Shown: positions 61,786 through 63,883 of the stretch, in pieces
Layout: the number at the start of each line of letters is the position of its first letter
Position numbering within the stretch: the first letter of the stretch is position 1
Assembly: GCF_014077005.1 (NCBI RefSeq)
Contig: NZ_JACGVC010000053.1
Coordinates: 124,001 to 188,000, forward strand
Direction of reading: 5' to 3'
DNA from: Colwellia sp. MB3u-45
GTDB lineage: Bacteria > Pseudomonadota > Gammaproteobacteria > Enterobacterales > Alteromonadaceae
DNA length: 64,000 bases
Made by a program: the position numbers and the translations under genes
The notes under the pieces: model-generated
What the model saw: only the letters and a program-made list of their open reading frames with translations
Database searches by the model: none
What the model was told of the DNA's origin: nothing

Positions 61786-63366
61786 TCAGGTAAGAAAGGC
61801 TTGATAAGCCTGGTTGTCAGTTTCTTCTTGCCACTCATAATCGAGCGCTTTTAAGTGCGCAAAAAAATCAGTTTCCTGGGTTTTTTGTACTTCAAAGCCG
61901 GCTAACACTTGGCCAAAAGCTGCACCGTGGTTACGATAATGGAACAAGGTAATGTTGTAATGCTCACCCAAAGTATCGAGAAACTTCTCTAACGCGCCCG
62001 GATATTCAGGAAATTGAAAGCGAAAAATACGTTCTTGCGCTGACAATTCATTTTTACCGCCAATCATGTATCTGACATGCAGTTTAGCTAATTCATTTTC
62101 CGTAAAGTCAGCTAATTCATAATCTTGTTGCTGCAAGCTTTGTATTAAATTTTTTCGGTCAGTAGCTTCACCACTTAGGCGCACACCAACAAAAATATTG
62201 GCACGTTGCGCTTGGTTTGTTAGCTCAGCGTTGTCGGCATAACGGTAATTAAATTCAGTGATCACTCGTCCAGCAAGTGCCTTACAAAAGTTTCTAAAAC
62301 TGCCTTTTTCTTCTGGTATTTTGACCGCAAACACCGCTTCTTTTTGCTCACTTAATTCACAACGTTCTGAGATATAGCGCAAGGTATGAAAGTTCATATT
62401 GGCGCCAGAAAGAATCGCTACCAAAGACTCGTTACCTTGACTAGTGTGACAATATTTTTGTAATCCTGCTAAGGATAATGCGCCAGCGGGTTCTGCAATA
62501 ACTCGCGTTTGTTCAAAAATATCTTTTATCGACGCACAAATTTCATCGGTCGTCACTGTTATGACATCGTCACAGTAATGCTTAATTAAATCAAAGGTAT
62601 GCTCACCAATACGCTTAACCGCAACCCCATCAGCAAATAAGCCAACTTGGTCCAAATCAACCGGTTTGCCGGCGGCAAATGCTGCTTTTAAACAGGCAGA
62701 ATCTTCGGCCTCAACACCAATAACTTTAATATGGGGTTGTAATTGTTTTAGGTAAACTGACATACCTGCTAATAAACCACCACCACCGACAGGAATAAAC
62801 ACCGCATCTGTGTGAGGGTGTTGTTGTAATAACTCTTTTGCCACCGTACCTTGACCAGCAATAATGTCAACATCATCAAACGGCGGTACTACAGTTTTAT
62901 TTTCAGCTTGGGCATAGGCTATAGCGGCTTGTTGTGCCTCATTAAAGTTCTTACCCACTAAGCGCACATCGGCACCAAAACGCCGTACATTATCCACCTT
63001 GATATCAGGTGTGGTAATGGGCATGACAATGGTGGCTTTAACACCTAATTTATTTGCCGCTAATGCTAAGCCTTGTGCGTGATTACCCGCAGATGCAGCA
63101 ATAACGCCGTCTAAGCATTGCTGCTCAGACAAGTTGACTAATTTGTTATAAGCACCACGTAATTTAAAAGAATGTACCGGTTGTTGATCTTCTCGTTTAA
63201 GAAAAATTTCATTACCTAAACGTGCTGATAATTTAGTTAATGGCGTTAGCGGTGATTCAATCGCTACATCATAAACTGGCGCAAGCAATATCTTGCGTAA
63301 ATAGTCTAAACCTTGCCCTTGTATAGCCTGGGCTTTTACTAATTCTACTTGTTCTGCATCAGTCAT
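61786..63366 (-). CDS. ilvA: Threonine ammonia-lyase, biosynthetic
   Basis: A 526-residue PLP enzyme that converts threonine to 2-oxobutanoate and ammonia, the first committed step of isoleucine synthesis. The PLP lysine is in [27 protein letters not shown] and the glycine-rich VGGGGLLAG hold the cofactor phosphate. Two ACT-like regulatory domains fill about residues 340-520 ([23 protein letters not shown] and [21 protein letters not shown]), so isoleucine feedback is expected. The start is ATG at 63366, matching the family N-terminus, with GGTGA about eight bases upstream; it overlaps the ilvD remnant's stop codon by eight bases, as in an ilvDA operon. Upstream in-frame starts would lie inside ilvD. 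Confidence 0.94.
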
Positions 63367-63772
63367 TGTTGTCACCATTAAAATTGCCATCCAGTAATTC
63401 ACGATTACGCACTGCGCCTTGGATCATGGCATCAGCACAGTGAGCGTTGATCATGTATTCCACTGAATCAGCAATTAAATCGCGTGATGGCAAGCTATAA
63501 AGCATGCCGCTATGACCCATAGCAATACCATCATCAACCGCTATAGTATTAAATTCTTTTGCTACGCCACCAGCGCCTTCAATGGGACGAGCAACTAATT
63601 GGCCCATATCTTTCAAATGCACATGGCCGGGTACAAATTGGGTAAAAGAGTTCACGACCGCAATAATAGGTTTACCAAAATCACCATCTGTCATCCCCGT
63701 AGCGCGCCAAAGCGCCCGAGCTCCGGCCATATTTCGCCCTTGAGTAGAAGTTGCTGATCTTAATCTTGGCAT
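63359..63772 (-). pseudogene. ilvD: Dihydroxy-acid dehydratase ilvD with large in-frame internal deletion
   Basis: IlvD is normally about 610-620 residues and dehydrates dihydroxy-acids in valine and isoleucine synthesis. Here the frame has only 137 codons. Residues 1 to about 117 are a normal IlvD N-terminus ([20 protein letters not shown], then [20 protein letters not shown] and [19 protein letters not shown]) up to NAHCADAM, where the family continues VCISNCDKITPGM. Instead it passes straight to [19 protein letters not shown], which resembles the family C-terminus (ADKGAVRD). About 480 codons, including iron-sulfur cysteines, are missing without loss of frame. The start and the overlap with ilvA are preserved. 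It cannot be an active dehydratase. A real deletion or a misassembly would both explain it. Confidence 0.85.
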
Positions 63773-63883
63773 GACCTTAGTTCCTGTATATATATGGCTA
63801 TTAATAAGCGCGATAAATGTTAAAAATTATGTTAAAAATTCACTCGATAATGCGCTTTTAACATAACTATTATTTTTTGGATT

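Follow-up and report, generated by a model that had tools for sequence, protein, structure and literature searches.

The window analysed here, a 64,000-nt stretch of the genome of Colwellia sp. MB3u-45 (G000), contains a minus-strand open reading frame of 137 codons (window positions 63772..63359) between ilvE and ilvA, in the gene order ilvG-ilvM-ilvE-stub-ilvA. It is an open remnant of a long-type IlvD: residues 1-117 aligned to positions 1-117 of 616 in the long DHAD model NF009103 (E = 3.1e-73) and were 93-97% identical to the ilvD proteins of 15 genomes of the genus. An earlier note on this DNA had claimed that ilvD was shortened to 137 codons by an internal in-frame deletion, and both the reading frame and the NF009103 match bear this out. 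At 247 bits the stub scored below the curated cut-off of that model (710 bits), which places it outside the long-type DHAD family proper. In the whole genome, the match to the stub was located at C53:187422-187721, within a 502-kb contig.

The native N-terminal part of the stub (codons 1-116 of long-type ilvD), recognised by identity to the genus ilvD genes and by NF009103, occupies 63425..63772 (minus strand), and the C-terminal ilvD tail with its stop codon occupies 63359..63418 (minus strand). Intact IlvD of Colwellia sp. C1TZA3 (G008) carries NCDK from residue 121, GSCSG from 193 and SGGTSG from 517; the native part of the stub ends at 116, and its only cysteine is Cys 112. Required active-site residues are therefore missing, namely both remaining Cys ligands of the cluster, the catalytic Ser and those Mg ligands that follow Cys122 (residue roles taken from the literature and general background). 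Compared with the long-type [4Fe-4S] DHAD (NF009103 / PRK12448, the E. coli IlvD type), the stub is alike in its first 116 residues, its place in ilvGMEDA and its overlap with ilvA, but 487 codons are gone and the active site is absent.

The stub stop overlaps the presumed ilvA start by 8 nt (ATGACTGA), an overlap that the earlier note had rightly described as kept, and GGTGA, judged by eye to be Shine-Dalgarno-like, lies 5 nt ahead of the presumed ATG. Read from this ATG, ilvA (biosynthetic threonine ammonia-lyase, 61786..63366, minus strand) scored 736.7 bits against TIGR01124 (cut-off 411.3) and was the only copy above that cut-off in a search of its own genome. In the family search ilvG, ilvM, ilvE and, nearby, ilvC also exceeded their cut-offs.

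Upstream of the stub, the ilvE-ilvD spacer contains a conserved, RNA-hairpin-like inverted repeat of ~ 40 nt, found by eye at 63827..63866 (minus strand) and occurring at one place in the genome. It was present in all 17 genomes of the genus group, in the ALOHA_DT_125 MAG and in a further family genome, G370 (cut by eye, 19/19 rows used). Compared with shuffles, which are a weak control since the rows are related, 90.9% of cells were paired (against 85.3% for shuffles and no more than 53.5% after sliding the repeat), five pairs were changed on both sides (2.7 in shuffles, 3/500 reaching 5) and the covariation score was 0.164 (0.080 in shuffles, 0/500), while the 12 further pair types were not unusual (71/500 shuffles). 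A paired change from U-A to G-C at one position was common to MB3u-45 and Colwellia sp. MB02u-6 (G012), and G-U pairs were common at two positions. The frequency of G-U suggests that the repeat acts as RNA rather than as a DNA operator, possibly terminating or attenuating transcription ahead of ilvDA; because it persists where ilvD is gone, a role for ilvA would fit. A search of Rfam with the repeat gave no real match (one at chance level, E 0.49, far below the gathering score). Consensus scans of the region said little: they revealed no promoter on the stub strand (one match on the other strand, with 1.8 expected), and their one terminator-like hit (63525-63507, minus strand; 0.5 expected) fell within the stub. 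A GC-rich spacer hairpin considered in MB3u-45, MB02u-6 and C1TZA3 was rejected, as its folding hardly surpassed that of shuffles (z = -1.89, -0.91 and -1.66, respectively).

Structure and age of the deletion

The earlier note had the N-terminal 117 and last 20 or so residues joined directly at CADAM/QGAVRN, with an Ala-Asp pair at both ends (CADAM and, in the family, SADKG) as the possible short homology. Both ends are native, but the native N-terminal part stops at codon 116; the next two codons, 117-118 (Ile-Gln), derive from the interior of intact ilvD, where it reads 'DAMIQGA', and everything after them belongs to the C-terminal tail. Instead of one join at the Ala-Asp pair, the DNA has a double junction (63414..63434, minus strand; compared with C1TZA3 and the relatives G006, G013 and G005), left by a deletion in two parts, 156 and 1305 bp, each at short same-frame direct repeats, in agreement with the more general proposal of deletion through short homology. 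The first repeat, TGATGCCATG, is a 10-mer at 63434-63425 with two copies 156 bp apart in C1TZA3 and G005 (Asp-Ala-Met codons). The second, AAGGCGC/AAGGTGC, has its copies 1305 bp apart, one around codon 170 and the other close to the C-terminus; the AAGG(C/T)GC pair is exact in G013 and G005 and has one mismatch in G006, while in C1TZA3 no C-terminal copy was found. In the stub, a single TGATGCCATG is followed by the interior Ile-Gln codons, a single AAGGCGC (63420-63414) and the C-terminal tail. The lengths add up accordingly (137 + 52 + 435 = 624 codons, as in several intact relatives), the ilvD genes of ten relatives having 618-624 codons. Such a two-part deletion would be the product of two steps or of one complex event. 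Separately, the ilvD of G001 (L041) stays open for 598 codons and has an aberrant C-terminal tail, which looks like the result of a frameshift close to the end of the gene, by mutation or sequencing error.

Exact direct repeats of at least 7 bp were in frame in 78/125, 89/136 and 100/137 cases in three intact ilvD genes (62-73%). Because most such repeats are in frame anyway, a kept frame can be explained without selection and is by itself weak evidence for it, and we rejected it as an argument. The claim that the frame was kept and would preserve coupled translation of ilvA therefore stands in part: the frame is kept and coupling is possible, but being in frame says little on its own.

An identical two-part junction was found in a separate assembly, that of MB02u-6, where the stub has lost another 87 nt in frame (29 codons) between two ATGGG words, leaving 108 codons. 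With the junction repeated there, accompanied by an extra deletion and by ordinary divergence around it, the chance of an assembly error in the window genome, one of the options raised previously, is close to nil. The two genomes differ by ~ 4-5% in ilvG, ilvM, ilvE and ilvA, so the deletion would be old if common by descent. A tree of these four genes returned ((MB3u-45, MB02u-6), C1TZA3) with support of 100 at both nodes, and V108I, carried by both stub species but by none of the other 15 genomes, speaks for a common origin of the two stubs. Recent introgression of the deletion was considered and is not supported, as differences lie close to the junction on both sides.

An alternative is that the stub is a plain decaying pseudogene in which the two species acquired part of the deletion late and independently, each by way of the same repeats, its apparent constraint being inherited from intact forebears. 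Recurrence of that one step is made plausible by the 156-bp TGATGCCATG repeat, which ranks first in length among the exact direct repeats of G005 ilvD and joint second among those of C1TZA3 ilvD, and the stem branch of the stub pair has a dN/dS of 0.018, no different from background (2dL 0.75). On the other hand, the 1305-bp junction is one of 125-137 direct repeats of at least 7 bp, making its double use unlikely, and both the shared V108I and the substitutions flanking the junction, which speak against recent transfer, are at odds with late origins. We consider this explanation unlikely, though far from negligible.

A second ilvD gene and the operon slot in relatives

A search of the MB3u-45 genome identified a complete short-type gene, ilvD2, at L005:6841-8622, in line with the earlier suggestion that another ilvD might exist. 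It scored 721.6 bits against TIGR00110 (cut-off 618) and 790.5 bits against NF002068 (cut-off 644, positions 4-557 of 559), which assigns it to the short-type DHADs. The third relative retrieved was Edd (TIGR01196, 906.9 bits, cut-off 708), and the same search gave no other relative besides the stub and ilvD2. Between the two stub species ilvD2 had a dN of 0.0054 and a dS of 0.168, and is therefore under strong constraint. Loss of DHAD with a requirement for isoleucine and valine, which the earlier note had listed as an option, is thus very improbable: some family genomes do lack any IlvD match (33/395), but here a complete ilvD2 above its cut-off shows low dN/dS, and ilvG, ilvM, ilvE, ilvA and ilvC all exceed theirs.

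Like short-type DHADs in general (NF002068 / PRK00911; plant chloroplast, M. tuberculosis), ilvD2 is alike over its full length, aligning end to end with the plant DHAD chains 5ym0, 9jpi and 5ze4, and carries all three Cys ligand motifs; it differs in that its host is a gammaproteobacterium, where it lies apart from the ilvGMEDA operon. At the first cluster ligand position it has Cys (in NPCNMH), as opposed to Gly (in VPGHVH) in the native long type. According to PMC9543379, this position is Cys in [2Fe-2S] dehydratases and Gly in E. coli-type [4Fe-4S] enzymes, the [4Fe-4S] type being more oxygen-sensitive. Since ilvD2 has the Cys of this [2Fe-2S] rule and the native gene the Gly, we infer a swap of cluster type from [4Fe-4S] to [2Fe-2S], with ilvD2 predicted to perform the lost DHAD step.

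Outside Colwellia/Psychromonas, the closest sequences to ilvD2 among the best 80 of 389 candidates were from Bacteroidota (68-71% identity), with two Gammaproteobacteria MAGs lower (63-65%). In a tree built by a quick method from 96 rows (94 different), which combined these best 80 of 389 candidates with chosen loci and so is no neutral sample, ten Colwellia/Psychromonas rows (8 genomes) formed one group (SH-aLRT 100) with seven Bacteroidota rows as sister (96), the nesting within another phylum expected of a foreign gene. The surroundings of ilvD2 differ between genomes (L005, L038, L040, L206): MB3u-45 and MB02u-6 have one flank only in common, C1TZA3 shares ~ 200 nt or less, and Psychromonas only the gene and ~ 50 nt. 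These differing flanks suggest that the gene may have moved.

Within the genus group (n = 17), a long ilvD above cut-off was present in 15 genomes (in G001 covering model positions 2-520 only), the exceptions being MB3u-45 and MB02u-6. C1TZA3, sister to these two, has both the long and the short ilvD intact, as displacement predicts for a relative, and Psychromonas sp. MB-3u-54 also has two ilvD genes. More reduced loci were observed elsewhere. The stub of the ALOHA_DT_125 MAG has a different junction, at which LATSADK... follows directly on the N-terminal 56 codons; its start is lost and it contains four stops, and ilvA there keeps its own start (the contig ends 219 nt into ilvA). G370 has a short scar with a few codons of each ilvD end. 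C. marinimaniae (G284) and TT2012 (G345) have ilvM adjoining ilvA and no trace of ilvE or ilvD1 between them. All four look like later stages of the same loss.

Across the wider family, 16/395 genomes (MB3u-45 and MB02u-6 included) had the short type as best ilvD, a set picked by eye from the best E-values (about 1e-216 to 1e-224) that leaves out odd intermediate values (e.g. G122, G217, G385); G253 was dropped from it, its ilvD apparently being a long type split over contigs, and G018 was added as a genome with both types. A second ilvD match above cut-off was seen in 0/14 re-searched short-only genomes. Directly upstream of ilvA, these 14 had ilvE in two cases (G205, G251), ilvM in three (G423 and the above G284 and G345), the scar in one (G370) and ilvD fragments in two (G338, broken; G365, last 33 codons); five (G318, G221, G184, G134, G298) had no ilvD1, ilvE or ilvM within 1.5 kb (only ~ 1.0 kb in G298), and no ilvA was found at E 1e-100 in G276. 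None of the other reduced loci examined held an open stub of the shape seen in the window.

A different short-type ilvD, 57-59% identical to that of Colwellia, was observed in 12 genomes of four other genera (L207-L216, L218, L222), namely 11 of the 14 short-only genomes and G018; 11 of the 12 had no long ilvD above cut-off. Since it forms a separate group (SH-aLRT 100), short types may have entered the family at least twice. In C. marinimaniae (L202), ilvD2 adjoins ilvC, ilvE is absent from the ilvGM-A cluster, and the sole ilvE-like match in the genome is 31% identical. As to the family genomes lacking an IlvD match, all of the 20 that were itemised fall in three genera (g10, g50, g52), with sizes of 2.1-3.0 Mb and completeness of 98-100%; they are perhaps branched-chain amino acid auxotrophs.

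Constraint on the stub

Selection on the stub was assessed with a two-rate codon model written for this analysis (codons 1-116, 17 genomes). The dN/dS of the two stub tips was 0.13 (likelihood profile about 0.04 to 0.4), significantly below 1 (p = 0.00036) and above the 0.0068 of the other branches (p = 0.00017); it is thus ~ 20 times that of intact ilvD, yet below neutral. Masking the codon beside the MB02u-6 deletion gave 0.10 (p = 0.00012), and control runs with four pairs of intact tips in the foreground gave 0.0001, 0.0001, 0.034 and 0.0001. In a seven-genome run, stub tip lengths (0.26, 0.26) were close to those of the flanking ilvE (0.24, 0.26) and ilvA (0.25, 0.23), with more scatter in ilvG (0.20, 0.33) and ilvM (0.10, 0.31); tip dN/dS in this run was 0.027 for ilvE, 0.059 for ilvA, 0.048 for ilvG and 0.18 for ilvM. 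The two stubs differ by 9 synonymous and 4 non-synonymous changes, 13 in all over 88 common codons, and all of these postdate the deletion if it was shared by descent. Only on that condition, and on few substitutions, does the value of 0.13 depart from the dN/dS near 1 expected of a neutral pseudogene.

Based on these 13 differences over 88 codons, the stub dN/dS suggests that the stretch ahead of ilvA is still translated, or that the peptide has a role. A functional small protein selected on its amino acids, for instance a partner or regulator of the branched-chain amino acid pathway, would account for a dN/dS below 1 (also with the codon masked) and for a synonymous rate close to that of ilvE and ilvA. 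Against it stand the small number of differences, the 20-fold relaxation from intact ilvD, the additional 29 codons lost in MB02u-6, the missing active-site residues and the lack of a similarly shaped open stub at the other reduced loci examined, so that we regard it as distinctly unlikely. Coupled translation into ilvA would be the likeliest reason for an open stub, although by itself it leaves a constraint on amino acids unexplained. It is not required everywhere, because in the ALOHA lineage ilvA keeps its start despite a stub with stops and a lost start. A wider proposal, in which the stub, its enzyme function lost, would have been retained in the ilvA transcription unit as a leader that is translated or as a small protein, under amino-acid selection and with the conserved RNA hairpin at its head, and a displaced enzyme would have become a control element for its operon neighbour, is speculative and on the whole unlikely.

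A proposed gene displacement part-way

We propose, with a probability of roughly 0.8, that the stub is explained by a xenologous gene displacement caught part-way. This is based on the second gene, the junction common to two species, a sister with both genes, the more reduced loci elsewhere and a dN/dS below 1. The forebear shared with C1TZA3 probably already held the short-type ilvD2, nested among Bacteroidota sequences; once the enzyme step was covered, the native long-type ilvD of ilvGMEDA would have been lost as short direct repeats gave rise to internal deletions, most likely in an ancestor common to MB3u-45 and MB02u-6, and what remained was a stub that lacks the active site. This stub may persist because it lies between the upstream spacer element and the start of the sole biosynthetic ilvA, where an internal deletion would drop the enzyme while translation into ilvA continues. 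The flanks of ilvD2, alike on one side only in the two stub species and shared little beyond the gene with C1TZA3, make a single vertical acquisition less certain, and the stub does not show the dN/dS near 1 that a plain pseudogene leads one to expect.

As in known cases of xenologous (non-orthologous) gene displacement with pseudogenisation, a foreign gene of predicted equal function is present and the native one is intact in the sister and broken here; the difference lies in several decay stages within one operon slot and in a stub below the neutral rate. Displacement is well supported and ordinary in kind; what is unusual is that its stages are visible and that the stub is relaxed but not yet neutral. 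Titles and opening lines of abstracts on ilvD in Colwellia and on related subjects contained nothing describing this case.

Colwellia and its close kin thus present a graded series, from both genes through an open stub, a shorter open stub, a stub with stops and a short scar to no trace, along which an essential enzyme, inferred to be oxygen-labile, would be replaced by a presumably oxygen-stable one from another phylum. The series also carries a warning that an in-frame stub by itself is no evidence of selection. With it, the order and cost of displacing an operon gene become testable, including whether a neighbour needs the dead gene.
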